NCBI GenBank assembly: GCA_002279765.1 | Contig: NCCR01000017.1 | Location: forward strand, 1-64,000 | Length of the DNA stretch: 64,000 nt | Source of the DNA: Verrucomicrobia bacterium 12-59-8 | GTDB taxonomy: Bacteria; Verrucomicrobiota; Verrucomicrobiae; Verrucomicrobiales; Verrucomicrobiaceae | Direction of reading: 5' to 3' | Part shown: positions 3,419-28,407 of the stretch, in pieces | Layout of the letters: each line of letters starts with the position of its first letter | Numbering within the stretch: the stretch's first letter is position 1 | Program-made: the position numbers and the translations under genes | The notes under the pieces: generated by a model | What the model saw: the letters and a program-made list of their open reading frames with translations, nothing else | Told to the model about the DNA's origin: nothing | The model's database searches: none

Positions 3419-3455
3419 GTGGTGCCATGGTGGTCCACGCTGCCGCCTACAGCCA

Positions 3456-3473
3456 TCCCCACAGATGGGGGGA
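3456..3473 (-). promoter_or_regulatory. EPS regulon motif, copy 1
   Basis: The coding-strand sequence is TCCCCCCATCTGTGGGGA, an imperfect inverted repeat with C-run and G-run arms. Its conserved central A lies 45 nt from the start of the exosortase-substrate gene, the same distance as in three other copies. Its plus-strand G run also sits 9 nt before the preferred ATG of the divergent polymerase gene, where it could serve as a ribosome binding site. Confidence 0.65.
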
Positions 3474-3481
3474 ATGCCTTG

Positions 3482-4900
3482 ATGCCTGGCATCGAGCAGA
3501 CTGCAGGCCTTGTGAAGGATGTCCTAAAATTCATCATCGCCCTCGCGCTTTATGGTGGCCTCGCGCCGCTGCTGGGCACGATTCTGGCCACGCGTCGCTC
3601 GTGGCAACGGGTGTTGTTTGGGCTCATGATCTTCATGCCAACGCTGCAACCGGGGCGCTTCACCCTGATGCTTGGCAGCATCGACACCTACCGGGGGCAC
3701 ACCAAGGGCTTCGAAGTTTCGCTCATCGAGGTGTTCGCCATCGCTCTCATCTTCGCTGTGTGCTGCGGCCCTCGCGAGCCCTCGATGCCGCGCCGCGCCA
3801 AACTGCCCCCCGGAACACTTGTCTATCTCGGCTGGGCATTCATTGGTCTGCTTTCCATCGTGAATGCCTGGGAGCCGTCGTATGTTCTCATGACATTCGT
3901 CCGTGTCTTCAAGAGCACGCTCATCTTCGCCGCAGCCGCGCTCTTCCTGCGCGATGAAAAAGACCTGCGAGCCGCCATCACCGGACTCGCGCTCAGTTTG
4001 ATCGTGCAGGGCTGGATCTGCCTGAAAATGCGCTATCTCGATGGCTACTTTCAAATCAAGGGATGGTTCGAGCATCAGAACCCGATGTCGATGTGGGCCT
4101 ATATGAGCGCCTGTGTCGTCTTCGCAGCCGCCATGCACAAGGACGTCAAAGGAAGGCTGCTTTGGCTGTGTCTTGCTGCGTTTGGGGCGGCTGGTTTGTG
4201 CGTGCTGCTGTCAGTGTCACGTGCTGCATTGGCCGCGTATGCCAGCGGTGCTGCCGTGGTACTGCTCATGGCCTGGATACGAGGTCCGGGAATGCGGACA
4301 ACGCTTTCCACGCTCATGGGCATCGTTGGCGCGATCATGGTGATGATGTTCGCGATGGACTCGCTGAATTCGCGCCTGAAGGAAGTGAAGGCGAGCAAGG
4401 AGCAGAATGCGGAAGATCTCCGCCCCGTGCTCAACCGGCAGTCCAAGGCCATGCTTCATGACTATCCGCTGCTCGGGATCGGCTGGAACAACTACGGTGT
4501 CGCGAACAGCCGTCCGTATGGCTTCAAATACAGCGAGGTGCTCGAAGAATGGGATCGCGAGCGCGGTTTCACCATCATCGACGAGAACTACTGGGCGAAT
4601 CCGCTCACCGAAAGCCTCTACTGGCTGCTGCTGTCCGAAAACGGCTGGCTTGGCTGGAGTGCGTTCCTTTTATTCGAAGCACTGACCCTTTGGTATGGCC
4701 TGCGTGCCATTCGCCATGGTGGCAAGAGCTTGTCCGGGTATGTTGCGTTCGGAATCTTCGTCGCCCTCGCGATCTGTTATCCACACGGCATGGTCGAGCG
4801 CATCCTGACTCAGACCAAGAACTTGGCTCACTGGTTGATGCTCGCGGGCATGCTTTCCGGCATGGAGATGAACTACCGGACGAGGAACAGGCTTTCATAG
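3482..4900 (+). CDS. O-antigen polymerase/ligase family protein (Wzy/WaaL-like)
   Basis: A polytopic inner-membrane protein of 472 residues with about ten hydrophobic segments and a large periplasmic loop. The loop holds the family signature region (LLGIGWNNYGVANS near 340), as in Wzy polymerases and WaaL ligases and in exosortase-associated O-antigen polymerases. It probably polymerises or transfers the lipid-linked EPS repeat in the periplasm. The open frame reaches back to a GTG at 3419. I prefer the ATG at 3482 because a G-rich ribosome-binding sequence precedes it and the earlier start would abut the divergent gene head to head. It is the only plus-strand gene of the EPS block. Polymerase versus ligase cannot be decided from sequence. 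Confidence 0.82.
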   Translation: MPGIEQTAGLVKDVLKFIIALALYGGLAPLLGTILATRRSWQRVLFGLMIFMPTLQPGRFTLMLGSIDTYRGHTKGFEVSLIEVFAIALIFAVCCGPREPSMPRRAKLPPGTLVYLGWAFIGLLSIVNAWEPSYVLMTFVRVFKSTLIFAAAALFLRDEKDLRAAITGLALSLIVQGWICLKMRYLDGYFQIKGWFEHQNPMSMWAYMSACVVFAAAMHKDVKGRLLWLCLAAFGAAGLCVLLSVSRAALAAYASGAAVVLLMAWIRGPGMRTTLSTLMGIVGAIMVMMFAMDSLNSRLKEVKASKEQNAEDLRPVLNRQSKAMLHDYPLLGIGWNNYGVANSRPYGFKYSEVLEEWDRERGFTIIDENYWANPLTESLYWLLLSENGWLGWSAFLLFEALTLWYGLRAIRHGGKSLSGYVAFGIFVALAICYPHGMVERILTQTKNLAHWLMLAGMLSGMEMNYRTRNRLS

Positions 4901-5011
4901 CCTGGTCTCCTCAGCCGGATTGCAGGTCTCCCGATCCACTTCGAGCCCCTTGGCCTCTTTCTAAATCCAGGATACATCGCCCTCTGCATTTGCTGCGAAG
5001 TGAACGGGAAG

Positions 5012-6091
5012 CTACTTCGACGCGAAGCGCTTCTTCAGATGTGCGCAGGGCTTTTCGACCAGAACGTGCATCGCCCAGGCGAGAACGACAGCCGCCACAA
5101 AGGCCACCGCGCCCTGCCACAATTTCGAAAGCGGCAGGTGAGTTTTGACCAGCGCGATCACCAGTGAGTGCACGAGGTAAAACGCATACGAAAGCACGCC
5201 AAACTTCCGCACCCAGGCCCAGTTCAGAAAGCGAAATGGCATCCAGTCAGAATAGCGAATCACGGCGATAAAAACCGGAATCAGCGCGAGACCTTGGATC
5301 GTGTAGCGCCATGTCTCGCGGAAGGCCACGTCACGCAGCAGGAAGCTCGCGACGAGCGCCGCCACGCTCAAAGGCAGCGCGATCCACAAAAGCACGCGAC
5401 GGCTGTGTTTGCACGCGTCCATGGCAGGATTTCCAAACACCGCCAGAGCACAACCAAAAAGCAAACCGTCAAGCCGTGTGTCGGTGCCGTGGCAGGTGCG
5501 GGGATGATGTACACTGCCGTTGTGGAGGTCGATCATCCCCCAGCCATGCACAAGAAACATGCGCCATGCGAGTACGAGGCCGCAGAGACCGAGGAGCGCC
5601 ATGAACTGATGACGCGGGTTTGGCAGCCCACGACGCAGCGCAAGATAGAAGAGCGGAAACAGCAGGTAAAAATGCTCCTCAACCGCCAGCGACCACATCA
5701 CCTCCGTGCCCGCCGGCTGCAGCCCACCGTGGATTTCCCAGTAGTTCGAGGCAAACCCTGCCTGCGCCGCCATCGCCGTCCATGAAAAGCCACCTTCAAC
5801 CGCCCCTGAAAACCCTAGCAACGTGATGCCAACAAGCACCAGGTAGAACGGAGGAAAGATGCGCAAAGCCCTCCGAAAATAGAAATTCCGCAAGTTAACG
5901 GCACCCGTGCGTTCGCACTCCAGACGCATGAGCGTGGTGATGAGATAGCCGCTGAGGAAAAAGAATATCGTCACGCCAAACAACCCCGGCACGATATGGG
6001 AAAGCCCCGCGTGGCTGAGAAAAACGATCAGGATCGCGACCGCACGCAAGCCATCGAGAGATGGAATAAGAAAGGGTTTATGAGTCGTCAT
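5012..6091 (-). CDS. acyltransferase 3 family protein (OafA/YrhL-like)
   Basis: The 359-residue integral membrane protein has the family N-terminus LDGLRAVAIL followed by the functionally important His in VFLSHAG. It also has FFFLSGYLI and the conserved MWSLAVEEHFYL motif near residue 135, within about ten transmembrane helices. Family members O-acylate (often acetylate) extracellular polysaccharides from cytoplasmic acyl-CoA. The frame extends to a TTG at 6109, but the ATG at 6091 starts the typical N-terminus and leaves 20 nt after the preceding stop. It is the third gene of an operon with a Wza-like lipoprotein and a glycosyltransferase, so it most likely decorates the same EPS. Confidence 0.87.
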   Translation of the reverse strand: MTTHKPFLIPSLDGLRAVAILIVFLSHAGLSHIVPGLFGVTIFFFLSGYLITTLMRLECERTGAVNLRNFYFRRALRIFPPFYLVLVGITLLGFSGAVEGGFSWTAMAAQAGFASNYWEIHGGLQPAGTEVMWSLAVEEHFYLLFPLFYLALRRGLPNPRHQFMALLGLCGLVLAWRMFLVHGWGMIDLHNGSVHHPRTCHGTDTRLDGLLFGCALAVFGNPAMDACKHSRRVLLWIALPLSVAALVASFLLRDVAFRETWRYTIQGLALIPVFIAVIRYSDWMPFRFLNWAWVRKFGVLSYAFYLVHSLVIALVKTHLPLSKLWQGAVAFVAAVVLAWAMHVLVEKPCAHLKKRFASK

Positions 6092-6111
6092 GACAGGGGG
6101 TGAACACAACG

Positions 6112-7548
6112 CTATTTCGACCCCATGGGAGTGCCCCAGTCGGGTTTGGTTTCGCGGCGGCCGAGCAACCAGTCATAGACTTGCGCGATTTGCCTGGCCT
6201 TTGCCTGCCAAGTGTAGAACTGGCGCACGTGCTCCTGCGCACGCTTTCCTGCTTCGACGAGGACATCGCGCTGTGCAGAAACATTGATGAGCAGATCCCT
6301 CAGACGGTTGACGATGTCATCACGCGAGCTCATTGGCAGCACAAAGCCAGTCCCAGGTGGCACGAGTTCGGGGGGGCCGCCGTGATCGAGAACAACGGGC
6401 GGGATGCCGAGGGCCATGGCTTCAAGGACAGCGCCGCCGCCGAATTCGCGAATGCTCGGGAAGACGAAGAGATCGCTTTCACGCAGCCGGTCGCCGAGTT
6501 TCGTGTGGTCGATCCAGCCATCCATGCGCACTGAGGCCGTGAGATTCATGGAGTCGATCATGGCCTGCAAACGAGCGCGTTCCGGCCCGTCGCCGATGAT
6601 GTCAAGAGTGGCTCCACTGGTGCGCAACAGGGGCGCGGCGGCCTCAATCAGCATGTCGATGCCTTTCAGCGCGACGAGCCTGCCGACAAAGGAAAGTCGC
6701 AATGGCTGCGCGGCATCCACAGGTGCTGATTCTCGTGGTGTGAGGGGGAATTTCGCCAAATCGATCGCATTTTCGGGGATGAAGACGCAGCGATTTTGAA
6801 GCGCTTTAGGGATCTCATTCAGCGTGGTGCGCGAGGCGGACAAAATCGCACTGGAGCACTCGCGGGTGGATTTCAGCCCGGGGGTGAACTTGTAGAGAGC
6901 CCGAAGCTTTCCTGCGAGATCGCGCTCATTGCGACGAAGGTCTGCGAAACCCTTCGGCCATGGCACACCACCATTCAGCGGACCGAGTACAAATGGAATG
7001 CCCATCTTTTTCAGCTTCGGCGCGATCCAGCTCGGAGTCGTTGGTGACAAAGGCAGGATGCGTTGTACCACGTCAAACTCGCCCGCTTTCAAGCGCGGTC
7101 CAAACTCGCGCCAGAGTACACGCTCGAAAAACGGATACACCAGGTTGGAAAGCATGGCATAGAGGCTCCAACTGAAGTTGCCTTTGCCGCTGAGTTTGTT
7201 CGTCAGGCTCCATGAGAGGTGCTGCAGGCGGCGATTGTTGATGGCGGTGAAGTCCTTGCCTTCGATGAGTCCGGCTCGAAGGAAGTCATCGCGATTGCGC
7301 CATTCGGTGACGATGTGAGCATCCGTCTCCGCCGCGATGGCTCTAGCACAGGACCAGCCAACAAGCGCTGCGCTGGTGAGCACCGGATTCGCTGCTTCGG
7401 CGATGATGAGGACTCGTACTTTTCGAGCAGCCTGGCTCTCAAGCGCTGAGTCATGCGGTGATTCGAGACGCGGAGTTCTTTTGGTGAGCCGGGTGGCTCC
7501 GTTGTTGGCCTTAAAAAGCCGAGCCACTGAAAGAGCGAACGCGATCAT
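6112..7548 (-). CDS. GT4 family glycosyltransferase
   Basis: A 478-residue GT-B fold enzyme. The C-terminal nucleotide-sugar domain shows LSFVGRLVALKGIDMLIEAA (Arg and Lys that contact the donor phosphates), IIGDGPER, and the family EX7E-type motif in SIREFGGGAVLEAMALGIP. About 40 extra residues precede the first strand (VRVLIIAEAAN), and a Met nearer that strand is not obvious, so the ATG that overlaps the upstream stop by 4 nt (ATGA) is kept. The overlap couples it to the Wza-like gene. It acts in the cytoplasm on lipid-linked intermediates; donor and acceptor are unknown. Confidence 0.88.
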   Translation of the reverse strand: MIAFALSVARLFKANNGATRLTKRTPRLESPHDSALESQAARKVRVLIIAEAANPVLTSAALVGWSCARAIAAETDAHIVTEWRNRDDFLRAGLIEGKDFTAINNRRLQHLSWSLTNKLSGKGNFSWSLYAMLSNLVYPFFERVLWREFGPRLKAGEFDVVQRILPLSPTTPSWIAPKLKKMGIPFVLGPLNGGVPWPKGFADLRRNERDLAGKLRALYKFTPGLKSTRECSSAILSASRTTLNEIPKALQNRCVFIPENAIDLAKFPLTPRESAPVDAAQPLRLSFVGRLVALKGIDMLIEAAAPLLRTSGATLDIIGDGPERARLQAMIDSMNLTASVRMDGWIDHTKLGDRLRESDLFVFPSIREFGGGAVLEAMALGIPPVVLDHGGPPELVPPGTGFVLPMSSRDDIVNRLRDLLINVSAQRDVLVEAGKRAQEHVRQFYTWQAKARQIAQVYDWLLGRRETKPDWGTPMGSK

Positions 7549-8615
7549 CGAGTTGGACCTCCGATGTTGATGTTCACGCCTACACCGGCTGCGCCCGGCG
7601 CACCAGCGCGGCTGCCTTCATTGGCAGCGACGAGGCGGACGAAAGTGCTCATGGCTGCGCGGGCGAAACCGCCGAGGGAGATGGAGTCCGCACCTGGCAC
7701 ATAGACGATGTCGCCTGGCTCCAAGCGCACGTTGGTTGCCTTGCCGCTCATGATTTCCAGCGCATTGACGGTGGCGATCTTCGGATTGGTGAGGGAGCCA
7801 CGGATGATCGAGACATGCTTCAAATCGGAGTCGGGCCGCAGCCCAAGACCGCGACCGAGGGCGGACATGAGGTTCATCTCATTCATGAAGCCGATCGGCC
7901 GGGGCTGAGTCACGGCGCCGAGGACATACACTTCGTTTGTCAGCGCTGATGGCAGATAGAGATAGTCGTCCGGCTCCAGGTAAATGTTTTGAGACATGTC
8001 ACCGTCGCGAATGAGTTTTTCAAAATCCACCGGAAGGGTGCGGCCTTTTCGAATCATGAAGCTGTGCTTCAAATCGGCAAGTTCCTCAGTGGTGCCGGTG
8101 AAGCGGGAGGTGAAGAGGCCGCCAGCCTTAGAAATCGCGTCCAGCACGCGCAGGGGCTGCGTCATCGGGTAGATACCGGGTGCATTCAGCCGCCCGAGCA
8201 CCCACACGCGCTGACTTACCGCTTCACGCAGCGTCACGGCAACCTGAGGCTGCTTGTAATACTTGATGAGCTGGCTCTCGAGCTCGGTTTGCAGCTGAGG
8301 GGTGGTTTTGCCAGCGACGTTAATGCCCGGAAGCAAATCAAAATACACCTTGGAGTCGGGGGTGACGAAGGTCTCTGTGCGAGTGTCTGTCTCACCGAGG
8401 ATTTCGAGCTCGATCTTGTCTCCGGGGCCAAGTGTGTAGGCCTTGGCGGGCTTTTGAAGCCATTGCGGATTGATCGGCTCCTTCGGGGCGGCGGATTCAA
8501 AGTTCGGCGAAGAGACGGCTGCGGGTGTGCCACCCCGCGCATCAAAGGTCGGACCTTTCGTGACGGAAGAGCAGGCGGTGAGGAGCAAGAGTGGAAGTAA
8601 AAGCAGGCATTTCAT
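7545..8615 (-). CDS. polysaccharide export lipoprotein (Wza/GfcE family)
   Basis: The 356-residue protein starts with a lipoprotein signal (MKCLLLLPLLLLTACSS, lipobox LTAC). The poly-export domain follows from about residue 60 (LGPGDKIELEILGETD), then two SLBB beta-grasp domains (WVLGRLNAPGIYP near 150 and YVLGAVTQPRP near 232). This is the order in outer-membrane EPS channels of the Wza class, with a C-terminal amphipathic helix (FARAAMSTFVRLV) that could cross the outer membrane. A Gly/Ala-rich tail ends the protein. It heads an operon with a GT4 and an acyltransferase and carries motif copy 2 upstream. A second Wza-like module is fused into the protein at 9437-12502. Confidence 0.92.
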   Translation of the reverse strand: MKCLLLLPLLLLTACSSVTKGPTFDARGGTPAAVSSPNFESAAPKEPINPQWLQKPAKAYTLGPGDKIELEILGETDTRTETFVTPDSKVYFDLLPGINVAGKTTPQLQTELESQLIKYYKQPQVAVTLREAVSQRVWVLGRLNAPGIYPMTQPLRVLDAISKAGGLFTSRFTGTTEELADLKHSFMIRKGRTLPVDFEKLIRDGDMSQNIYLEPDDYLYLPSALTNEVYVLGAVTQPRPIGFMNEMNLMSALGRGLGLRPDSDLKHVSIIRGSLTNPKIATVNALEIMSGKATNVRLEPGDIVYVPGADSISLGGFARAAMSTFVRLVAANEGSRAGAPGAAGVGVNINIGGPTR

Positions 8616-8652
8616 GACGCAGAACGTTCGGCGTCATCTGGTGCTGCAACAA

Positions 8653-8669
8653 TCCCCCCAGCTGGGTGG
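8653..8669 (-). promoter_or_regulatory. EPS regulon motif, copy 2
   Basis: Coding-strand core CACCCAGCTGGGGGGAT. It contains the perfect palindrome CCCAGCTGGG. The conserved position lies 45 nt from the start of the Wza-like lipoprotein gene, and the motif begins 12 nt after the stop of the response-regulator gene. Confidence 0.7.
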
Positions 8670-8681
8670 TGGTTGAACCAG

Positions 8682-9353
8682 CTACTGCTGATGCTCCAGA
8701 TACTTGATCACGGCCTCGGTGCGGGAGCGGACATGCAGCTTTGAATAAACTGCTTTCAGGTAGTCGCGCACGGTCTCGTAGCTGATGCCGAGGTCGTGGG
8801 CGACTTCTTTGGGCACCATGCCTTGAGCGAGACGTTCGAGGATCTGGCCCTCGCGAGGTGTCAGTCCGGGGATTTCCTTTTTTTGCGGTGTGAGGGGCTC
8901 TTGGAAGGACTTGATGAGCAGTCGTGCGATCTCCTGGCTTAGCGGCGCGCCGCCTTCGCTGGCCTGGCGGATGCCGGCGGCGATTTCGTTCGGTTTGGCG
9001 GTCTTGAGAAGGTAACCATTGGCTCCAGCGCGAAGAGCCGCGAAAACCTTTTCCGGATCATCGTGGATAGTAAGCACGACGAAGGCCGTGGTCGGCATGC
9101 GCGGTGACATTTGGCGGATTAACTCCATGCCGGAGACCTTGGGCAGTTCGAGATCGACAACGACGACGTGCGGTTGCGAATCAAGTATCGGCTTCGCCGC
9201 TTCCTCAGCGCTTTCCCAAGCTCCGATGAATTCAAAGCCGTTGGCGGGCTTTTGGATCAGCTTCTTCATGAAGAGCCGCAGCGTAGGATCGTCTTCGACC
9301 ACAGCTACACGGAGGGTTTTCAAAGCGGGGATTTCGCTGGATGTCTCGGACAT
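8682..9353 (-). CDS. NarL/FixJ (LuxR-type) response regulator
   Basis: The protein has a receiver domain at about residues 12-130, with the acidic pair in VVEDDPT, the phospho-acceptor Asp in VVVDLELP, Thr in VVLTIHDD and Lys in YLLKTA. A LuxR-type helix-turn-helix follows (LTPREGQILERLAQG to ISYETVRDYLKAVYSKL). The frame is open for 70 more codons upstream, but that part is a shadow of the preceding gene. I take the ATG at 9353 (another ATG at 9371 is possible). It is the only DNA-binding protein in the EPS locus and shares an operon with the chain-length/export fusion. It is therefore the best local candidate for the factor that reads the eight-copy motif, which is an inference. Confidence 0.9.
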   Translation of the reverse strand: MSETSSEIPALKTLRVAVVEDDPTLRLFMKKLIQKPANGFEFIGAWESAEEAAKPILDSQPHVVVVDLELPKVSGMELIRQMSPRMPTTAFVVLTIHDDPEKVFAALRAGANGYLLKTAKPNEIAAGIRQASEGGAPLSQEIARLLIKSFQEPLTPQKKEIPGLTPREGQILERLAQGMVPKEVAHDLGISYETVRDYLKAVYSKLHVRSRTEAVIKYLEHQQ

Positions 9354-9436
9354 GCGGCAAATTAACGGCATGGGCAGCGATTTGGAAGAGGCATTTTTGC
9401 CGCTTGGCTCGCCTGAGCCGAGCCACCAACGAGGCT

Positions 9437-12400
9437 TTAACGGATTTGTGGGAGGAGCGGATCTTTGATGAAAGGGCCGACGTTGGCGCGCGTCCAGCTC
9501 GAGACGGCGCCTTGGAGGAAGGCGTTGATCGCAATATTCACGAGTTCCTCTGCCCGTGCCCACGGACGGTCAGCGACATAGACGATGTCCTTCGGTTCCA
9601 GCCGAAAACCGGTGCTGCGGGCGGTCAAAATATCATTCATATCGACAACGATGCGTTCAGGCTTCTCAAGTGAGCCTCGGATGACGAGTATGCGCTGTGT
9701 GTAGGCCTTCGGCGTGAATCCCCCGGCAAGGGCGATGGCGCTGTGGACGCTGCTGTGAGAGAGCAGGCCCTGCGTGCCCTGCATCTTCACATCGCCCAGG
9801 ACGTAGATTTCGTTCGAGTTGGCAGAGGGGAAGTAAAGGTAGTCGCCAGGCTCTACGCGGAGGTTTTGAGTCATGTCGCCGCGCATGAAGAGCGCCTCCA
9901 TGTTCAGGGGCACCCGCTGCTGGCCGCGCATGAGGAAGCTGTGGCCGAGATCGGCTAGTTCGACGGTGTTTTGTTGAAAAAGGCCGGTTTCCAGGCCACC
10001 CGCCTCAGCCACGACTTCGAGTACGGACATAGGACGGTCGAGATTGATGGCACCTTTTTTCACGATTTTTCCGAGAACATAGACCTTGCGACTTTGAAAG
10101 GTGAAAGGTGTGACAACGACTTTTGCACTACGATAGTAACGGCGCAGTTCGGTGGTGAGCCGGGCGCGCAATTGATCCACGGAAAGACCGGAGGCTTCGA
10201 TGTCGCGTGCCTGCAAGTAGGTGAGACGACCGTCTGGGCCGATGGACACCGCCTCGCGCTCGTGGCCTGGGAAGCCGGGCATGTCGATGTTTACGGCATC
10301 GCCGGGACCGAGGAGGAGTGTTGGATGGCTTTCTTTCGCAGGCGATAAGACCTCGTTCACGGCTTTGGAGAGCGGAGCTACAGGTTCGGCAGCGCCCACG
10401 TTCGCTGAAAGGACCAGCAGGGCGGCGAACTTCGCCAAGGCCAGCGGACGCAAAGCGGGGGCTCTATCGAGCACGGATGCAACAAGGCGGCAGCCAGCAT
10501 CGCGATACATGCGCAGGGTGCTGCTCACGCGCTCCACGCGAGTGCTGCCACTGGAGCCATACCACAGGAGATTCGGCAGCCTCTCGGCAATGAGCAATGA
10601 CTCCGGCTGCTCCACGGAGGGCAGTGTGATGAGGATGACGACTTCCGGGGTGGACCGCCATTTCGACATGGCCGCCCACCACTGCTGGCGATTCTCGGGT
10701 GTCCAGGACCAGGATTCATCGACGTGCAGCACGCAGACTTCATCGCTATGCTCGCGCAAATGCGTGGAGACGAGATCCGGCTCGATCATGGCGTCTCGCA
10801 GGCTCACAGTGGCCTCGCCTTGCTGCGAGGTGATGGCGATGCAACGCAGACCGCGACGTGCGGCCGCAGAGGCGAGACGCAGGGTCATGCGTGCGGCGGA
10901 GTCGGACTCGCCATCATGCATAACGCCGCAGACGGTCGCCTCACCACGTGTCGGGATTAAAAGCATGGGCTGGAGGCGCGTCCAAGTACGGAAAGCCCAC
11001 GCAGCCTCGCTTTCGTTTAAATGGCGTTGATCCAACGGCATGATGCCGACCACAGGCACACCGGTGGCGCGTTTCAGATCGCCACCACTGTGAATGCGCG
11101 CATCGAGCAAAGTAAGCATGATGACCGCAAAACCCACGAGCCCGGCACCTGCAGCAAAACCACCGCCGGTGGCCATGGCGAGCTTTTGAGTCGGCGGCAC
11201 CGTGCTGACGTCCTGCGGCCGATCCATGGAGAAGAGCTTGAAAAAGCCCTGCGCGTTTTCTTCAAAGAGCACGGCTTCGCGCTGGCGACTCGCGAGCAGC
11301 GCACGGGAGGCCTCCAGCGTCTGCTGCTTCGATTTGATGCTGGCGTATTCCATCGCCTTGCGCGGGAGCTGGGCCAGGCGATCGTTCAAACCGTCTCGAA
11401 CGATGTTGAGTTTGGCGAGCTGCTCGGACATGACCTGCTTTTCGGAACGAAGGCGCACGAGATCCAGATACAGACTCTCCGCCACGCTGCTCTCGCCGGG
11501 CTTTGGCGGAGCATCCACACTCGGGCCACGTGCCTGACCCTGCCGTTCCATCGCGTTGAGCTTTTCACGAGCCTCGATCATGGCCGGGTGCTCATCGGTG
11601 TAGCGCACGGCGAGTTCGGCGATTTGGCTGCGCACGGAGTCGAGGCGGGCGGCGTTCGTGTCCACCTTGGCGAGTTCCTTCTCCACCGCCTGAATGCGCA
11701 GGTCGAGCGTTTCGTGATCGAGCTTCACTGTTTCGTATTTGAGGGTGAAATTGCCGAGTTCACCGAGCCAGGCGTCCATCTGCTTGCCGGCATCGATCAA
11801 GTGCTCTCGACGTCCGTAGTCAAGGAGCTCCTCGTTCGCTTTCACAAGGTCGTTGTCCGTCCGCTCGATCTGGTGCTGAAGGAATGTGCGCATCTCGGTG
11901 GCAGATCCGCGTTGGAGATCGCGAGCCAGGGACAGCACCTCGGAAGTATAGGCCTTGAGCATCTCCAGCGAGGCTTCAGGGGTCTCATTGGAGGTCATGC
12001 TGATTGAAACGATGTCCGTGTTTCGCACCGGGGCGACGACGAGGCCGGCACGCAGCACATATTCGGGGAACCGGTTGTTGAGGCGCTTGCTTGTGGCCTC
12101 GATCATCGCGTTGGAGTGCATGAGGCTGACAAAGGTGGGAATAGTGAAGTCATGCGGCTTGTAGCTCTCTCCCGTGTCAGACTGGCGGAAGGCTGAGGCG
12201 GCTTCCTGCTTGATGACCTGCGCCTCGGCGGAGTGCAGGGTTTCAAAGCGCTGCAGGCCGACATAATAAAGCGCGCCACCGCAGGCCGCGCCGCCGATCG
12301 CCATAAGCCACCAGCGGCGTACGAGGGCGTCGAGGAGGCGCAGCGGGTCGAAGGGAAGCTTGATGGAGGCAGGAAGCTGTTCCGGTTCGGAGAGCGAATC

Positions 12401-12502
12401 GACATCCACGATTTTCGCACGCCGCCTGACCAACGGGCGGCGGTTTAGTGCGCGCGGCGGGATGGAAGCCGGAAGAGATGTTGAGACAGTGAGATCAGTC
12501 AT
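9437..12502 (-). CDS. fusion of Wzz/GumC-type chain-length regulator, decayed BY-kinase domain and Wza-type export domain
   Basis: One uninterrupted 1021-residue frame carries parts that are normally separate. Residues 64-83 and 445-466 are the two transmembrane helices of a polysaccharide co-polymerase, with a long coiled-coil periplasmic region between them (Wzz/GNVR type). Residues 515-680 occupy the place of the cytoplasmic tyrosine kinase, but the Walker A Gly-Lys-Ser/Thr is absent (the strand runs into VMHDGESDSAARM) and no Tyr-rich tail follows. Residues 684-705 form a third hydrophobic segment that looks like a Sec signal peptide (LAKFAALLVLSANVGAAE). Residues 728-1000 are a poly-export plus SLBB module (LLGPGDAVNID, VYVLGKIVKKGAI, IYVLGDVKMQG) similar to the 7545-8615 protein. 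It probably links inner-membrane chain-length control to the outer-membrane channel. It heads an operon with the response regulator. Confidence 0.88.
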   Translation of the reverse strand: MTDLTVSTSLPASIPPRALNRRPLVRRRAKIVDVDSLSEPEQLPASIKLPFDPLRLLDALVRRWWLMAIGGAACGGALYYVGLQRFETLHSAEAQVIKQEAASAFRQSDTGESYKPHDFTIPTFVSLMHSNAMIEATSKRLNNRFPEYVLRAGLVVAPVRNTDIVSISMTSNETPEASLEMLKAYTSEVLSLARDLQRGSATEMRTFLQHQIERTDNDLVKANEELLDYGRREHLIDAGKQMDAWLGELGNFTLKYETVKLDHETLDLRIQAVEKELAKVDTNAARLDSVRSQIAELAVRYTDEHPAMIEAREKLNAMERQGQARGPSVDAPPKPGESSVAESLYLDLVRLRSEKQVMSEQLAKLNIVRDGLNDRLAQLPRKAMEYASIKSKQQTLEASRALLASRQREAVLFEENAQGFFKLFSMDRPQDVSTVPPTQKLAMATGGGFAAGAGLVGFAVIMLTLLDARIHSGGDLKRATGVPVVGIMPLDQRHLNESEAAWAFRTWTRLQPMLLIPTRGEATVCGVMHDGESDSAARMTLRLASAAARRGLRCIAITSQQGEATVSLRDAMIEPDLVSTHLREHSDEVCVLHVDESWSWTPENRQQWWAAMSKWRSTPEVVILITLPSVEQPESLLIAERLPNLLWYGSSGSTRVERVSSTLRMYRDAGCRLVASVLDRAPALRPLALAKFAALLVLSANVGAAEPVAPLSKAVNEVLSPAKESHPTLLLGPGDAVNIDMPGFPGHEREAVSIGPDGRLTYLQARDIEASGLSVDQLRARLTTELRRYYRSAKVVVTPFTFQSRKVYVLGKIVKKGAINLDRPMSVLEVVAEAGGLETGLFQQNTVELADLGHSFLMRGQQRVPLNMEALFMRGDMTQNLRVEPGDYLYFPSANSNEIYVLGDVKMQGTQGLLSHSSVHSAIALAGGFTPKAYTQRILVIRGSLEKPERIVVDMNDILTARSTGFRLEPKDIVYVADRPWARAEELVNIAINAFLQGAVSSWTRANVGPFIKDPLLPQIR

Positions 12503-12538
12503 GATGACAAATGATGCCTCCGCAGGGGCAGCGGGACA

Positions 12539-12555
12539 ATCCCCCCAGCTGGGTG
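12539..12555 (-). promoter_or_regulatory. EPS regulon motif, copy 3
   Basis: Coding-strand core CACCCAGCTGGGGGGATT, almost identical to copy 2. The conserved position is 45 nt from the ATG of the chain-length/export fusion gene. Confidence 0.7.
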
Positions 12556-12570
12556 TAGGAGGTGCGAAAT

Positions 12571-15652: not shown

Positions 15653-15689
15653 GACGTCGCTATTGAAGCGGCATGTCCGAGAATGCGCA

Positions 15690-15708
15690 TCGCCCGCAAG
15701 TGAGGGGG
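15690..15708 (-). promoter_or_regulatory. EPS regulon motif, copy 4
   Basis: Coding strand CCCCCTCACTTGCGGGCGA. This is the most divergent class A copy (CTTG for CCTG and one interrupted G run), yet its distance to the ATG (46 nt) matches the others. Confidence 0.6.
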
Positions 15709-15879: not shown

Positions 15880-15893
15880 GAGTGGCGAGAACC

Positions 15894-18169: not shown

Positions 18170-18212
18170 TTTTGGTATGAGCAAGCATAGGCCAAGGAAT
18201 GAGAGGAGTCAG

Positions 18213-18230
18213 TCCCCGCAGGTGAGGGGA
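18213..18230 (-). promoter_or_regulatory. EPS regulon motif, copy 5
   Basis: Coding strand TCCCCTCACCTGCGGGGA, with perfect 5-bp arms TCCCC/GGGGA around an 8-nt centre. It begins 1 bp after the stop codon of the GT2 gene and lies upstream of the GT4 gene at 16955-18169, so this intergenic gap probably holds a promoter. Confidence 0.7.
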
Positions 18231-18231
18231 G

Positions 18232-20489: not shown

Positions 20490-20494
20490 GAGGG

Positions 20495-22060: not shown

Positions 22061-22100
22061 GCGTGTGGATTAATATTCCAGCAGAGCGATGGAGGGACAA

Positions 22101-22116
22101 TCCCCCCAGGTGGGTG
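22101..22116 (-). promoter_or_regulatory. EPS regulon motif, copy 6
   Basis: Coding-strand core CACCCACCTGGGGGGA. The conserved position is 48 nt from the flippase ATG. The motif lies between the terminator of the upstream operon (22134-22174) and the flippase gene, which supports a promoter or operator role rather than a terminator role. Confidence 0.7.
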
Positions 22117-22133
22117 GTGGTGAGGGAAAGATC

Positions 22134-22174
22134 AAAAAACAACCGGGGCCGGAAGACACACATCTTCCGGCCCC
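22134..22174 (-). terminator. rho-independent terminator
   Basis: A perfect 12-bp inverted repeat (GGGGCCGGAAGA / TCTTCCGGCCCC) encloses a 6-nt loop. On the minus strand it is followed by GGTTGTTTTTT. It lies 31 bp past the stop of the FkbM methyltransferase and ends the long operon that starts at 27046. Confidence 0.88.
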
Positions 22175-22204
22175 CAGGCCACTCCCCCACAAAAGATTGT
22201 TGCG

Positions 22205-22924
22205 TCAGCGAGCGAAGAGCCAGGTATTCTCCTCGACGCCTTGAGTCTCGAAACCACAGGCTCGGAGCTGGGCGATGACGCGCTCATTGGCTTCTTCGCC
22301 GACGATGCTCGGATGAAGCTCGATGATGATGCGGGTGACGGATTGCGGGAGCTGGGTAAAGTCGAGGAAGGTTTCGGCACCTTCGATGTCGCAGATGAGG
22401 ACGGTGGGAGGTTCTGACATCATCTTCACCAGGCTGGGGAGGCTCATGGAGGGGACGGTAATCTGCGTGGCGGAGCCGTGCGCGGTGATGATGCTGTTTT
22501 CCCAAAATTCGCCGCCGATATTGAGGCTGAGTTCACCGTCTTCGCACGATGCTGCCGCCTGGACCACCTGGGGTGCGAGGCCGTTGAGGGCGTAGTTATG
22601 GCGCAGCATGGACAGCGTGTTGGGATTCGGCTCCACGGTGAGGTGGTGCTTCACGCCGATGACAATGCGGCAAAAGAGACCGATGAAACCGATGGCACCA
22701 CCGAGTTCGAGGATGACGTCGTTTTTGGTCAGGCACTGCTGAGCTAAGCGACGCTCCTGAAACTCATAGCGGCCTTGCAGGATGTGATTTTTCATCAGCG
22801 ATGAGAGTCTGCTGATGTCGAGCTGCACGCCGTGAAGCGTCGCACGCTGTTTGGCAGGCAGGGTGAACTTGAAGTGCCAGCGGGTAAGGAAGTCCTGGAC
22901 GAAGTTGGGATAGGTGAGGGTCAT
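22205..22924 (-). CDS. FkbM family methyltransferase
   Basis: The 239-residue protein has the SAM-binding glycine motif VILELGGAIGFIG near residue 70, the acidic VEPNPNTL strand near 97, a VLICDIEGAETFLDF segment and an ELHPSIVG strand, as in FkbM-type O-methyltransferases. Such enzymes often methylate sugars in O-antigen and EPS loci. It is the last gene of the operon, 4 nt after the phosphatase-fold gene, and is followed by a strong terminator. Confidence 0.86.
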   Translation of the reverse strand: MTLTYPNFVQDFLTRWHFKFTLPAKQRATLHGVQLDISRLSSLMKNHILQGRYEFQERRLAQQCLTKNDVILELGGAIGFIGLFCRIVIGVKHHLTVEPNPNTLSMLRHNYALNGLAPQVVQAAASCEDGELSLNIGGEFWENSIITAHGSATQITVPSMSLPSLVKMMSEPPTVLICDIEGAETFLDFTQLPQSVTRIIIELHPSIVGEEANERVIAQLRACGFETQGVEENTWLFAR

Positions 22925-22928
22925 AAGA

Positions 22929-24113
22929 TTAGGCGGCGAGGGCGTGTTGATGGGTGATAGCGGCGGCAGGTGCGACTGCTTGTGTCATGAGGCGGTGAAT
23001 GTGGGGTATGTGCGTGATGTCAGCGGGAACGTCCGGCGTACTGCTGAAGAGCGTGGCGTAGCTCTGCGGATCGTGCGGGTGGTAGCCGTGCATGGCACGG
23101 ATGGGGCGCTCGCCCATATGGCTGGGGACGATCAGAGTGCCTTCACGGACGAGAAAAATGAGCTCGCCAAAGCGACCGTCTTCAAAGTAGGCGCGCATGG
23201 ACTTGAGTTCGTCATCGGGAACTATGCGGCCTTCGATGACGGTTTTCAGGGTGTCGGTGATGAGTCGGCGGGCATCTTCATTGAAGAACCAATAGCGGGC
23301 CATGGTGCTGTCATAGACGACGTTGTAGTCCGTGCCGATGCGGAGGCCGAGGGCTTCAATTTCCTTCACGAGATCCAGGTGGACATCACAATTCGCCATG
23401 CCGTGATCGCTGAAGACATGCAGCGAGACGTTGCTGTAGTGCTGATGGGCGAGTTTGAGCGTTTGAGTGATCCAGGTTTCGTATTCGGCGAGTTTGGTGT
23501 CGATCGTTGGCGACTGATTGCCGACGCGGTGGAGAAGGCCGTCGAGACCGGCCCAGTATTGAAAGGCGAAAGTGATGCGCTGGGCGGCGATGTCAGCGTT
23601 TAGGCGGTCCCGGTTGGATTCCTCGCTCAAATCGGGATTCGTGACGAAGTAGGGCACGTTTCTCGCCTCGAGCTGGTCGAAGATGTTTTCGCCACGGTTC
23701 ATGCCGCAGGGCTTCAGCGGGCTCTTTTTCTCGGTGAAGTCGTAGAGATGGATCTGCTGAAATGGGATATTGTACAGGTCAAAGTAGCCCTTAAAGCCAA
23801 GGAAGTGCTTCACGAGCTTGGTGAGGTAACGGCGGACGATGCGGCGGCTGGTGAAGGCCTTTGGCAGCCAGCGCAACCAGGTCAGCGGGGCGAATGGAGA
23901 GTTCTCCGGGTCGTGGATGAAATAGCACCAGTTTTTATGTTCGTCAGGCCAGCGTCCGCTGAGGATGCTCGGAACGCAGGTGCTGCTGTAGCCGAAGACG
24001 CTCTCAAGCTTGCGGCGATGCGGTGCGGCGGACTGAAGGAACTGCGGTCGCGTTTTGATGATCTCCCACCCGCAGGCGTCGATCATGATGAAGAGGTCGA
24101 GATGGTCTTTCAT
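22929..24113 (-). CDS. alkaline-phosphatase superfamily protein (type I phosphodiesterase/pyrophosphatase-like)
   Basis: The 394-residue protein shows the metal-binding first strand LFIMIDACGWE, the nucleophile region FGYSSTCVPSILSGRWPDEH near residue 41-60, and the metal ligands in HVFSDHGMANCDVHLD near residue 238. This pattern fits phosphodiesterases, phosphoglycerol transferases and nucleotide pyrophosphatases. No signal peptide or membrane helix is present, so it would act in the cytoplasm, perhaps on phosphorylated EPS precursors. It sits within the EPS operon just before the FkbM gene. The substrate is unknown. Confidence 0.8.
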   Translation of the reverse strand: MKDHLDLFIMIDACGWEIIKTRPQFLQSAAPHRRKLESVFGYSSTCVPSILSGRWPDEHKNWCYFIHDPENSPFAPLTWLRWLPKAFTSRRIVRRYLTKLVKHFLGFKGYFDLYNIPFQQIHLYDFTEKKSPLKPCGMNRGENIFDQLEARNVPYFVTNPDLSEESNRDRLNADIAAQRITFAFQYWAGLDGLLHRVGNQSPTIDTKLAEYETWITQTLKLAHQHYSNVSLHVFSDHGMANCDVHLDLVKEIEALGLRIGTDYNVVYDSTMARYWFFNEDARRLITDTLKTVIEGRIVPDDELKSMRAYFEDGRFGELIFLVREGTLIVPSHMGERPIRAMHGYHPHDPQSYATLFSSTPDVPADITHIPHIHRLMTQAVAPAAAITHQHALAA

Positions 24114-24179
24114 TGGGGTGGATTGAAGATGCCAGGTTTTTTTGCTTCGTGGCTTTGCAGCCAGAGCGGGGACATGGGG

Positions 24180-24353
24180 TCAGGCTGCGAGGGAGGCAGG
24201 CGTGATGAGTCGTTCGATTTCTTTTCGCAGCAGCGTGGGAATGAAAGGCTTGGCGACCAATACGGTGGCCTCCTCAAAACCGAGGCGATGTCCGACAGCG
24301 AGCTGGCCGCAGGCACTGAGAATGACGACGGGGATGGGGCTATCGGTGTTCAT
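24180..24353 (-). pseudogene. receiver-domain fragment
   Basis: Only the C-terminal half of a CheY-like receiver is readable. It contains PVVILSACGQ (conserved Thr/Ser strand), a Gly-Phe turn and VLVAKPFIPTLL (conserved Lys-Pro). The N-terminal half with the phospho-acceptor Asp is absent in this frame, and no good match is seen upstream in the other frames. It lies between the STAS gene and the phosphatase-fold gene. It may be the remnant of a response regulator or a very short stand-alone protein. Confidence 0.5.
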
Positions 24354-24730
24354 GGGTGAGAGAGCATATTTTGGTTTGAACGAGCATTGCGGCGGCGCGC
24401 ACGAAAACGACAAAGGTGGCGGCTTCGTTGGAAGGATCGTTCCTTTCAACCAGGCGGTGCATGTGAGGCAAGCTATCGCGCCAGCACCATACGTCGATCC
24501 CCTCAACTGAGGTGGATCGCAGGCAGTTGTTGAGCAGCTTGTGTCCCATGCTGCGGCCGCATTTGCAGCGTTGGACTCTGGGACAGCTCGCGTTTGATCA
24601 GGAGGGCGTTATTCTCTGCGCCACGACGACGAAGACGGATCAGCAGGTTGCCCGAGGTAATTTTTGAGACTGCGCAAGACATTGAGCTCGCAGGCCTTTG
24701 ACGGGCCAGCGGGTAAAGTCCGTATGCAGA
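24354..24730. other. degenerate region within EPS operon
   Basis: These 377 bp between the STAS gene and the receiver fragment contain only short broken frames on the minus strand. The location suggests the lost front half of the receiver protein or another partner-switching gene, but I cannot align it confidently to any family. No terminator is seen, so transcription may pass through. Confidence 0.45.
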
Positions 24731-25015
24731 TCAGGCATGAACGATTTCAAATACGCGATGCAGGCGGGTCAGCTCGATGAGTTGCGCGACTGCGGAGGAG
24801 GGATTCAGCAGTTTCATGACACCGCCTCTGGCACGGATCGACTTGTTCAATGAGAGCAGCACTCCGAGGCCCGAGCTGTCGATGAAGCGCGTGTTGGAGA
24901 GGTCAATGCTGGTTCCCAGTGGATCGCTGGTGATGTTTTTGACGACCCGATCTTTCCAGAGTCGGGCGTTGGCGGAGCTCAGTTCGGCGGGTGCTGTTTG
25001 GGTGGTGGCGTTCAT
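24731..25015 (-). CDS. STAS-domain anti-sigma-factor antagonist-like protein
   Basis: A 94-residue single-domain protein with the SpoIIAA/RsbV signature IDLSNTRFIDSSGLGVLLSL, which includes the phosphorylatable Ser. Such proteins bind anti-sigma kinases in partner switching. No RsbW-like kinase or phosphatase gene is seen intact nearby. In EPS loci, STAS proteins can instead regulate sugar transferases or stand-alone switches. The frame extends upstream to 25066, but the ATG at 25015 lies 4 nt after the preceding stop and fits operon spacing. Confidence 0.82.
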   Translation of the reverse strand: MNATTQTAPAELSSANARLWKDRVVKNITSDPLGTSIDLSNTRFIDSSGLGVLLSLNKSIRARGGVMKLLNPSSAVAQLIELTRLHRVFEIVHA

Positions 25016-25019
25016 CGTA

Positions 25020-26286: not shown

Positions 26287-26290
26287 AGGG

Positions 26291-27046
26291 TTACATTCCT
26301 TTGCCCAACACGATGGCGGGGACTGTTTTCAACAGGATCCAGAGGTCGCGCACCAGGGACTGGCTCTCGATGTAGCGGACATCGAGCGTGACCTGCTCGT
26401 CGAAGTCGATGGCATTGCGGTCGCCGATTTCCCAAACGCCTCCGCGACGTTCGCCGACCTGCCAGAGACAGGTGATGCCGGGACGTGCATGGAGACGGCG
26501 GCGGTCATCGGCGGAGTAGAGAGCCACTTCACGCGGCAGCGGCGGACGTGGGCCGACAATGGACATGTCACCGCACAGGACGTTGATGAACTGCGGCAGC
26601 TCGTCAATGGAGGTCTTGCGGATGAAGCGGCCGATGCGGGTGATGCGCGGATCGTCCTTCATCTTGAAGGTGATACCCTGAGCCTTCTCGTTCTTTGCCA
26701 GCAACCCAGCGAGCTTTGACTCGGCATCGACGCACATGGAGCGAAACTTGAGCATCTCAAATTCGCGCCCATGCAGACCCACACGCTTCTGCTTGAAGAA
26801 CACCGACCCACCATCGCGGCGGACGAGTAGCGAGATGATGATGAACAAGGGCGATGCCATGAGCAGGCAAATGAGGCTGATGACGATGTCAAAGAGGCGT
26901 TTGGCAGCATGCGTGCCATTCACAACCGAGAGCCAGCTGCAGCGCTTCAAGTGAAGGCCAATGCGCATCTGCATGCGACCGATACGCCTCTGCGCCTTGA
27001 TGAGGCGGAGGGCTTGTTGTTCGGCTATATAGAGTGGATGTGTCAT
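26291..27046 (-). CDS. undecaprenyl-phosphate sugar phosphotransferase (WcaJ/WbaP-type, short form)
   Basis: A 251-residue polyisoprenyl-phosphate hexose-1-phosphate transferase, the usual first enzyme of Wzx/Wzy EPS synthesis. It has AAKRLFDIVISL and one membrane helix (about residues 52-74). The catalytic core includes VFFKQKRVGLHGREFEMLKFRSM, a DDPRITRIGRFIRKTSIDELPQ region (split across residues 130-155), MSIVGPRPPLP and ARPGITCLWQV. The long multi-helix N-terminal domain of WcaJ is absent, so it belongs to the minimal class. Open frame continues to 27157, but the ATG at 27046 is preferred because motif copy 7 lies 42 nt upstream. It heads the long operon down to 22205. Confidence 0.92.
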   Translation of the reverse strand: MTHPLYIAEQQALRLIKAQRRIGRMQMRIGLHLKRCSWLSVVNGTHAAKRLFDIVISLICLLMASPLFIIISLLVRRDGGSVFFKQKRVGLHGREFEMLKFRSMCVDAESKLAGLLAKNEKAQGITFKMKDDPRITRIGRFIRKTSIDELPQFINVLCGDMSIVGPRPPLPREVALYSADDRRRLHARPGITCLWQVGERRGGVWEIGDRNAIDFDEQVTLDVRYIESQSLVRDLWILLKTVPAIVLGKGM

Positions 27047-27080
27047 GCCAGGAATGTGATGCTTTTGCTGGGTTTGTAAC

Positions 27081-27098
27081 TCCCCGCAGGTGTGGGGA
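27081..27098 (-). promoter_or_regulatory. EPS regulon motif, copy 7
   Basis: Coding strand TCCCCACACCTGCGGGGA, with perfect 5-bp arms. The conserved position is 42 nt from the ATG of the initiating sugar transferase gene. The motif starts 15 bp after the stop of the preceding GT4 gene. Confidence 0.7.
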
Positions 27099-27113
27099 AC
27101 TTCCAAAGCCGAG

Positions 27114-28352
27114 TCAGGCGTGGACAAGGGTGGGTTTCGAATGCCTTGAAACTGCATTCTTTTCTCTGGAGAGCCGGGATATGGAGACGTTTGCGAACAT
27201 CTGTTCGAGATCGGAGATGTAGTCGTCGAAGTCGTAGCGCTCGGAAACGAGCTGGAGGCCTTTTTGGCCGAATTTGCGGGCTTTTGTTTTGTTTTGGAGG
27301 AGATCGTCGATTCCTGCAGCGAAAGCAGTGCGGTTCATCCAGGGGATGAGATGGCCGTTGTGGCCGTCGATGAGCCAATCTTTGATGCCGCCGGCGTCGA
27401 AGGCTACGACAGGAAGGGCGTATCGCATGACTTCGAGGCCGATGGTGGCGATCGGCTCCGGCCACACGCTACTCAAAGCGACGACGCTGCATTCACGGTA
27501 GTAGGCCTTCAATTCTTCCTGCGGTATGAAGCCTTTGAAGTGAACTCGATCCGCGAGGCCGAGTTCACGGCTGAGCTCCTCGCAGGAGGCTTTGTGATTG
27601 CCATCGCCGAGAATGATGCACTCGAAGTTGCTCTTCACCTTGGCCAGCGATTCAAGGAGCACGTCCACGCCTTTGCCGCGAATGATCTGGCCGGCGTAGA
27701 GGATCAAATTGCGATCGCTGAAGCTGCTGCGAAGTGTGGGATCTCCCATGCGGGGCACTGGCGCGTGGATTTCGATGCGGTTCTTGTCGAAACCGTTGTT
27801 CAGCAACTCGTCGCGCATGTATTCAGTGACGACGACCATGCGGTCGAAGCAGCGATTGAGCGCGATCTCGCGCTTCTTGTCACGGTAGCTCACGTATTTA
27901 AGCGGAAAGCCGCCTGCATTGTTTTTCACCACGCAGGCACCACAGCCGACGGCGCAATAGAGGCTGGCGGCACGCGTGCAGATCTTCCGGGTGAAGTAGT
28001 CATACTTGTAGCTGCGCATGCAGTAGATGTCATGATCGTGCACCATGCGCACGAGCGGCACGCCGCTTTCCACGAGGGCCTGGATGACCTTCAGGTCGGC
28101 CATTTTGTGGACATAGACTGCGTCTGGTTTGAAAGCAGCGAGAGCGGATCGGGTGCGAGCGGCGGAATCACCTTCGAGGCCAAAACGTTGTGGAAAGACC
28201 TGCTCCCAGCCGTCTTCGTTTTTGCCGGTGCCAGGTCCGTGCAGGATGCCGATGGCGTGACCGCGCTGACCAAGCTGCTCAGCAGTGATGAAGGCATTGG
28301 CTTCTGCCCCGGCAAGGGCTCCGAAGCGTTCGTGGACGTAAAGGAGTTTCAT
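27114..28352 (-). CDS. GT4 family glycosyltransferase with cysteine cluster
   Basis: The 412-residue GT-B enzyme starts MKLLYVHERFGALAGAEANAF. The donor domain shows LILYAGQIIRGKGVDVLLESL, CIILGDGNHK, and SSVWPEPIATIGLEVMRYALP, a variant EX7E. A Cys-rich insertion (CTRAASLYCAVGCGACV, near residue 125-142) after the HDHDIYCMRS strand is known from some GT4 enzymes and could bind a metal. The last residues overlap degenerate REP-like sequence, and the stop lies in GCCGAGTCA. It is a single-gene operon with motif copy 8. Confidence 0.88.
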   Translation of the reverse strand: MKLLYVHERFGALAGAEANAFITAEQLGQRGHAIGILHGPGTGKNEDGWEQVFPQRFGLEGDSAARTRSALAAFKPDAVYVHKMADLKVIQALVESGVPLVRMVHDHDIYCMRSYKYDYFTRKICTRAASLYCAVGCGACVVKNNAGGFPLKYVSYRDKKREIALNRCFDRMVVVTEYMRDELLNNGFDKNRIEIHAPVPRMGDPTLRSSFSDRNLILYAGQIIRGKGVDVLLESLAKVKSNFECIILGDGNHKASCEELSRELGLADRVHFKGFIPQEELKAYYRECSVVALSSVWPEPIATIGLEVMRYALPVVAFDAGGIKDWLIDGHNGHLIPWMNRTAFAAGIDDLLQNKTKARKFGQKGLQLVSERYDFDDYISDLEQMFANVSISRLSREKNAVSRHSKPTLVHA

Positions 28353-28389
28353 AAGGTGATGAAACTCGCGTGGAAATAGATAGGCGAAA

Positions 28390-28407
28390 TCCCCGCAGGT
28401 GGGTGGG
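28390..28407 (-). promoter_or_regulatory. EPS regulon motif, copy 8
   Basis: Coding-strand core CCCACCCACCTGCGGGGA. The conserved position is 45 nt from the ATG of the GT4 gene. It marks the upstream border of the EPS block. Confidence 0.7.

Follow-up and report, generated by a model that had tools for sequence, protein, structure and literature searches.

What does a short motif do when it stands before every operon of a polysaccharide locus, and why does it keep so constant a distance from the start codons? The question is raised by the first 64,000 nucleotides (nt) of contig NCCR01000017.1 of Verrucomicrobia bacterium 12-59-8 (assembly GCA_002279765.1), here called the window, a Prosthecobacter-like stretch of the Verrucomicrobiaceae. 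An exopolysaccharide (EPS) locus spans positions 417-28352 of the window and encodes glycosyltransferases, export and chain-length proteins, a flippase-type protein, and sugar transferases, as assigned by a Pfam scan, together with exosortase Z and a PGAP-CTERM protein. A first-pass annotation, made from the letters of the DNA, described eight copies of the motif and suggested an operator or activator site, possibly read by the LuxR-type regulator encoded at 8682-9353; it also allowed a leader hairpin. The motif is real. We consider it probable, on sequence evidence, that each copy is the operator of a NarL-type activator, built of two inverted heptamers and fused to a minimal promoter that mostly has leaderless or short-leader geometry.

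The motif and the -10 box behind it

All eight copies were found on the minus strand of the window, each upstream of EPS genes. The core CYCANCTGSGGGGA matches exactly at five sites (8653, 12540, 18213, 22101, and 28390) and with one mismatch at two more (3456 and 27081), compared with chance expectations of 0.005 and 0.44 for the window, and none of 200 dinucleotide shuffles yielded seven or more exact or one-mismatch matches. The common core claimed for all eight copies therefore holds for seven; the copy at 15690 is diverged (CTCACTTGCGGGCG), with three mismatches that keep it out of a two-mismatch list, and this diverged form is kept at the orthologous genes of relatives. The site originally placed at 12539 belongs at 12540. 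A two-mismatch scan is weak by itself (14 matches versus 7.8 expected, with 4 of 100 shuffles equally high), partly because the motif is nearly palindromic. No copy had been noticed inside the operons; a near-match at 24498-24511 does lie within one, but it is part of a coding stretch (TSVxGxDxW...) conserved in two relatives. It was rejected as an extra promoter site because its conservation is accounted for by the coding sequence, and it is probably no genuine site.

Start codons lie 46 to 55 nt downstream at all eight sites when counted from the C of CAnnTG, as are all such distances here, which is equivalent to the 42 to 51 nt previously given from another base. For the 12540 site, this count uses the ATG at 12502; the gene caller of this analysis had chosen a later start.

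The motif extends well beyond the window. With the regulator at 8682-9353 as the query, 14 loci were retrieved from other genomes, the closest regulator relatives being in Verrucomicrobiaceae, and near-identical contexts were de-duplicated before sites were counted. A matrix built from the window copies finds the element before EPS genes in several of these loci, so the scan of relatives proposed by the first-pass annotation shows the element recurring at orthologous EPS genes. In seven groups of orthologous upstream regions (three to six sequences each), conservation is concentrated in the motif, and the intergenic sequence around it is otherwise poorly conserved. Moreover, in the upstream regions of 300 genes, the strong matches whose gene can be recognized by its protein mostly precede EPS-locus genes, and some precede an H-NOX gene. 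Judged by its sequence, the motif marks a real, conserved regulon; no description of it was found among the top-ranked matches of literature searches. At locus L194 (position 6328, genome G001), the same operator precedes a gene for a second secreted-looking protein of about 319 amino acids with a C-terminal anchor-like tail, which matches nothing in Pfam or NCBIfam. The regulon may accordingly extend to proteins other than those of the main EPS genes.

The dyad has the form CCMCNCA-NN-TGNGGGG, with inverted heptamers 2 bp apart (7-2-7), and is followed by A-TTG at the -35 position. An ungapped alignment of 45 sites reveals conservation at -5 to +14, a nearly featureless spacer, and then A36 (71%) and T40 (80%). 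A -10 box has such an A and T, four bases from each other, at its -11 and -7 positions. This pair lies 17 bp beyond the closing TTG of the motif, with a spacing of 16 to 17 bp across sites. In 33 nonredundant sites, A36/T40 occurs 20 times, a count reached in 0 of 20,000 permutations, and an A/T pair at a spacing of 16 to 18 occurs in 28, versus 2 to 4 at control offsets. Over all loci, the pair stands at 35/36 in 60 of 71 sites, versus 1 to 9 at twelve control offsets; these 71 are the sites with a called start 25 to 90 nt away, the others being counted separately among 94 strong sites (see below). Loci outside the matrix give 21 of 24 sites versus 0 to 5 at control offsets, with the limit that many are orthologues of matrix sites and so are not fully independent. 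The window itself has A36/T40 at five sites, A35/T39 at two, and neither at 15690. The first-pass annotation overlooked this -10 box, which is the likely reason for the constant distance.

Other kinds of promoter and leader account for these columns less well. A sigma54 promoter was rejected: the 8653 site has GG-N10-GC by chance, the arrangement is not conserved across sites, and the 45-site profile has no such conserved -24/-12 columns. With the -10 box on its downstream side, the motif is expected to stay outside the transcript of its own promoter, and this position tells against the leader hairpin that the dyad had seemed to permit. The arms are C-rich and G-rich, but the -1/6 columns often do not pair, and A at -3 stands opposite G8 in a third of sites. 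Also, an Rfam scan of window positions 1-36000 detected only a tRNA at 66-137 and no structured leader RNA at the sites.

Elements read by ops/RfaH and other NusG-paralogue systems are short, oriented sequences before polysaccharide operons, and the present motif resembles them in being oriented, G-rich, and placed before EPS operons. Under such a model, the motif would be transcribed and would serve to load a NusG paralogue (RfaH/LoaP type) at long EPS operons. Each of the 11 genomes tested encodes two NusG-family proteins, of which one is diverged. Unlike ops, however, the motif here is predicted to lie upstream of the promoter -10 box and hence outside the leader, and A/T pairs at any upstream offset occur in at most 7 of 46 sites. 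In the flippase-gene group, a terminator-like hairpin, seen by eye, ends about 18 to 27 nt before the motif and leaves little room for an upstream promoter, and the 3456 site fits both directions. The model was set aside once the downstream -10 box was seen, and we regard it as extremely unlikely. The hairpin, with its T-run, lies within window positions 22118-22205 directly upstream of the flippase-gene site and is present in five of six aligned sequences (window, L068, L070, L072, and L086). The diverged NusG-family protein (loci L056-L066, from 11 Verrucomicrobiales genomes) is about 180 amino acids long where complete (AWYVVHxRPKCEHIAA...YCPRI), and no EPS operon was noticed beside its gene in these short loci.

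Start codons, leaders, and sites that fit two directions

If T40 is taken as -7, transcription should start (+1) at about 46 to 47 nt from the core. At the 71 sites, called start codons lie at least 46 nt away in 68 and 46 to 70 nt away in 65, with 12 at exactly 46 and 12 at exactly 49. The three shorter distances (L069, 39; L072, 29; and L077, 36) belong to genes with in-frame starts further down that match their orthologues, and the starts were re-assigned to these codons, at 54, 62, and 45 nt, respectively. With the predicted +1, messages at these sites should be leaderless or have leaders of up to about 25 nt, which would explain the near-constant distance from motif to start. Passages of one study (PMC10783764) report some Verrucomicrobia to be scarce in Shine-Dalgarno sites. 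In our data, a Shine-Dalgarno-like 4-mer stands ahead of only some 10% of the 553 non-motif genes counted, with starts from the gene caller of this analysis. The idea that a missing Shine-Dalgarno site signals a special translation element was rejected, since such 4-mers are scarce at non-motif genes too.

The first-pass annotation gave all copies the same orientation relative to the downstream gene. All eight do have this orientation on the minus strand, but at 3456 the arrangement suits the divergent gene on the plus strand as well, with A36/T40 in each direction. Judged from this arrangement, GTG 3512 is the probable start of the plus-strand O-antigen ligase gene, and not the upstream ATG 3482. 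Under a lenient rule, by which any open frame with a coding signal may start 44 to 74 nt away, 12 candidate two-way sites were collected. The -10 pair (offset 35 to 37) is present in both directions in eight of them. Six of these eight are flanked on one side by a ligase-type gene (window, L075, L077, L155, L194, and L012); the other two, L067 and L069, have one gene starting 70 to 71 nt away. The pair is found in one direction only in L073, L084, and L146 and in neither direction in L072. Matching promoters both ways at one site provide a good internal check of the model.

A NarL-type regulator as the candidate reader

We propose that the motif copies form the upstream halves of promoters that depend on an activator. 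The NarL-type response regulator encoded at 8682-9353, activated by phosphorylation, would bind as a dimer to the dyad, whose center falls at -44.5 if +1 is 47. There the dimer would abut the poor -35 element (TTG) and help the housekeeping RNA polymerase use a minimal -10 element, of which only A-11 and T-7 are conserved, 16 to 17 bp further on. At most sites, the mRNA would start with the start codon or immediately ahead of it, and such leaderless or short-leader messages would fix the distance from motif to ATG. One regulator would in this way turn on the EPS/exosortase-Z locus, including the divergent O-antigen ligase gene via the shared 3456 site, and probably its own operon as well. The operator at 12537-12556 may possibly also drive the regulator gene, which is the next gene on the same strand.

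The protein itself has the features expected of such a reader. Its phospho-acceptor aspartate is kept (VVVVDLELP aligns with LILLDLNMP of NarL), and what we take, by position in the helix-turn-helix (HTH), to be the DNA-reading helix is largely conserved among aligned orthologues. The best NCBIfam match is NarL at 135.3 bits, below the cut-off of 250, so the protein is not assigned to NarL proper. Among 28 window open reading frames (a subset) scanned with Pfam, the response regulator is the only one to match a DNA-binding family above its cut-off.

Regulator and motif also occur together. In the family set (68 genomes), a regulator orthologue was defined as a match of at least 195 bits, a cut chosen after the scores had been seen; the strict motif is present in 14 of 18 regulator-positive genomes versus 3 of 50 negative ones (Fisher, 1e-8). 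At the level of the order (288 genomes), the figures are 17 of 30 regulator-positive genomes (E up to 1e-54) versus 9 of 258 (Fisher, 2e-13). Seven of the nine regulator-negative matches lie inside called genes (G015, G073, G111, G155, G249, G250, and G271), and those in G047 and G056 look real; all nine genomes were kept in the counts. Strict matches of the 17 positive genomes were not all screened alike: in G048 no start is called in range of the match, and in G086 the called start is 112 nt from it.

Thirteen regulator-positive genomes have no strict motif, and regulator loci were examined in eight of them. A site directly follows the regulator in G104 and, in weaker form, G153, and sites stand elsewhere in the locus in G126, G129, and G132. 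The other five include G010 and G070, which have sites, and G008/G009, with one weak variant near the regulator. A site lies within about 20 bp after the regulator gene in G104, G086, G197, and, again weaker, G153, and it still adjoins the gene at 52 to 55% regulator identity (G104, G086, and G197). The motif, its dyad form, its -10 box, its distances, and its conservation and co-occurrence with the regulator are established at the level of sequence. Together, the 7-2-7 geometry, the fixed-distance -10 box, and the co-occurrence and linkage of the regulator indirectly support the earlier suggestion of an operator with a LuxR-type reader; the identity of the binder, activation over repression, and the start points we infer from them, as we do the nitric oxide (NO)/O2 input discussed below.

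Within the same promoter architecture, the reader of the dyad might be a different DNA-binding protein whose gene lies elsewhere in the genome. The regulator and the EPS locus are linked, so co-occurrence is no proof of the reader, and sites occur in G056 and G047, where no regulator orthologue was detected. Nevertheless, the 7-2-7 arrangement is the geometry of the regulator's own family, the window scan offers no other DNA-binding family, and sites still adjoin the regulator gene at the 52 to 55% identity noted above. We therefore judge a different reader unlikely. The motif could also be the -35-type core of a promoter for an alternative (ECF-like) sigma factor, with no activator involved; it includes the -35 position and keeps a fixed 16- to 17-bp spacing to a -10 box that lacks T-12. 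Yet A-11/T-7 is the signature of a housekeeping -10 box, and the perfect 16-bp dyad CCCCGCAGCTGCGGGG in several relatives and the two-way use fit a dimeric protein better, which makes this sigma factor very unlikely. NarL-family proteins can also act as repressors, and the site might be a repressor operator of the same regulator. It lies upstream of and abuts the -35 element, however, instead of overlapping -10/+1, and the -35 and -10 elements are both poor; repression thus appears highly improbable.

Several observations weigh against the activator proposal. The co-occurrence P values are too optimistic, because the pattern came from regulator-bearing loci, the 195-bit cut was post hoc, the sets overlap, and the genomes share ancestry. 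G056 has clear EPS sites with no regulator orthologue in its assembly, and G047 has one plausible site and no regulator. No site above the threshold was found in the regulator loci of G223, G241, and G288, and none in 20 kb around the regulator of G031. The -10 box lacks T-12, and sites of the wecG type often lack a standard -10 box. The distinct strong sites (score above 18) number 94: a start is near (90 nt or less) at 59, farther off at 8, and not called on the strand at 17, and 9 lie within called genes and 1 at an edge. The gene caller of this analysis misplaces some starts, and two of the eight farther-start sites, including window 12540, have an ATG at 47 to 49 nt. A related group (L146:3214, L148:3931, L151:15437, and others) has a good -10 box but lacks a start in the first 90 nt, so short leaders are not universal and some may be long. 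Finally, H-NOX genes often have a looser palindrome 70 to 117 nt upstream of the start. In G056 (L160 and L161), neither the 1021-amino-acid gene nor the regulator was found, by loss or because the assembly is incomplete.

The wider locus and known systems

The features of the window are collected in the table below.

Table. Proposed regulatory elements of the window and selected genes, with distances to start codons in nt.
Feature	Position	Strand	Remarks
7-2-7 operator + -35 region	28387..28406	-	upstream of GT4 gene 27114-28352, ATG at 49; A35/T39, 16-bp spacing
Operator + -35	27078..27097	-	upstream of sugar transferase gene 26291-27046, ATG at 46; A35/T39
Operator + -35	22098..22117	-	upstream of flippase-type gene 20495-22060, ATG at 52; A36/T40
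Operator + -35	18210..18229	-	upstream of GT4 gene 16955-18169, ATG at 55; A36/T40
Diverged operator CTCACTTGCGGGCGATG	15688..15707	-	upstream of GT4-WecG fusion gene 13673-15652, ATG at 50; no -10 at standard place
Operator + -35	12537..12556	-	upstream of 1021-amino-acid chain-length/export gene 9437-12502, ATG at 49; A36/T40
Operator + -35	8650..8669	-	upstream of polysaccharide export gene 7545-8615, ATG at 49; A36/T40
Two-way operator	3453..3476	both	minus: exosortase-substrate gene 2588-3418, ATG at 49; plus: O-antigen ligase gene, GTG 3512 at 50
Looser palindromic site CCCCCCCCCAAATGTGGGGGGG	32098..32117	-	79 nt upstream of H-NOX; off standard spacing
-10 element	3427..3432	-	promoter of 2588-3418
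-10 element	3497..3502	+	promoter of 3512-4900
-10 element	8624..8629	-	
-10 element	12511..12516	-	
-10 element	18184..18189	-	
-10 element	22072..22077	-	
-10 element	27053..27058	-	16-bp spacing
-10 element	28362..28367	-	16-bp spacing
Exosortase Z (XrtZ)	1175..2584	-	NF050190; directly downstream of exosortase-substrate gene of 3456 site
Exosortase-dependent surface protein with PGAP-CTERM	2588..3418	-	NF050191, NF050189
O-antigen ligase (Wzy_C)	3512..4900	+	PF04932; start re-assigned to GTG 3512
NarL/FixJ-type response regulator, proposed reader	8682..9353	-	receiver (PF00072) + LuxR-type (GerE) HTH (PF00196); best solved relative NarL 1a04
Hybrid histidine kinase, proposed upstream kinase	28510..31479	-	HNOBA, PAS, GAF, HisKA, receiver, Hpt
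H-NOX haem NO/O2 sensor	31476..32033	-	PF07700

The sensory genes beside the EPS locus offer a candidate input. At locus L006, a single cluster contains the genes for H-NOX, a hybrid kinase with HNOBA and Hpt, an isochorismatase, another hybrid kinase with Hpt, and the regulator. Genes of these kinds are also present in the window, but there the regulator gene is situated within the EPS locus; a second hybrid kinase follows the H-NOX sensor, with no Hpt match in Pfam. This clustering suggests that H-NOX and the hybrid kinases may partner with the regulator and may supply an NO/O2 input, for which the pair at 28510-32033 would be the likely source in the window.

Other neighbors were observed as well. 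An isochorismatase-family hydrolase is encoded beside the H-NOX/hybrid-kinase genes at window 34544-35260 and L006:6824-7459. Long plus-strand open reading frames adjoin the sensory genes at 36042-44184; the larger (38074-44184) has passenger-associated-transport (PATR) repeats, and the smaller has one PATR match slightly under the cut-off. Window 24113-24731 holds what appear by eye to be remnants of two genes of L068, a SpoIIE/GAF/HATPase gene (5880-7643) and a receiver-only gene (5507-5893). The receiver core is seemingly missing, and a STAS open reading frame (24731-25015) lies upstream.

Three known systems bear comparison. The first is NarL of Escherichia coli, whose heptamer is TACYYMT. 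Sections of one paper (PMC7419079) describe NarL binding to 7-2-7 sites, one of which is centered at -44.5 at ogt and abuts the -35 element, and a requirement of yeaR for a single 7-2-7 site just upstream of -35. The promoters described here resemble ogt and yeaR-yoaG in their inverted 7-2-7 heptamers abutting -35, and the candidate regulator belongs to the NarL family, with NarL as its closest solved structure. They differ in the heptamer (TGNGKGG), in the short- or no-leader geometry, and in serving EPS rather than nitrate genes.

Second, in Vibrio fischeri, passages of PMC8738867 describe H-NOX/HahK signaling to SypF and the syp exopolysaccharide regulon, fed through an Hpt domain. Here too, an H-NOX protein and a kinase with Hpt are proposed to feed an EPS regulon. 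The final regulator SypG of V. fischeri is a sigma54 activator, whereas we propose a NarL-type regulator acting at sigma70-like promoters. Third, proteobacterial PEP-CTERM/exosortase systems are under the control of RpoN and PrsK/PrsR, with a surface protein co-regulated with matrix functions, as parts of PMC9850573 describe. The present locus is similar in that an exosortase-linked surface protein would be regulated together with matrix functions. Unlike those systems, with their sigma54 -24/-12 promoter, it has no GG-N10-GC element.

The broadest form of our proposal is that an H-NOX-gated phosphorelay runs the whole EPS/exosortase-Z program via one NarL-type activator. Its operator would be fused to -35, its messages would be mostly leaderless, with the start codon placed by the activator site, and one site would act both ways. 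This full chain, as read from the genes and sites, we hold only as a tentative possibility, somewhat short of an even chance. To our knowledge, the regulon would rank among the first with a defined operator in free-living Verrucomicrobiota. From the geometry, many EPS genes are predicted to be translated from leaderless or short-leader messages, in bacteria where Shine-Dalgarno-like sites are scarce. What the analysis adds for these bacteria is an operator with a candidate for its reader, a likely signal, and a promoter grammar, each of them testable in a cultured relative.

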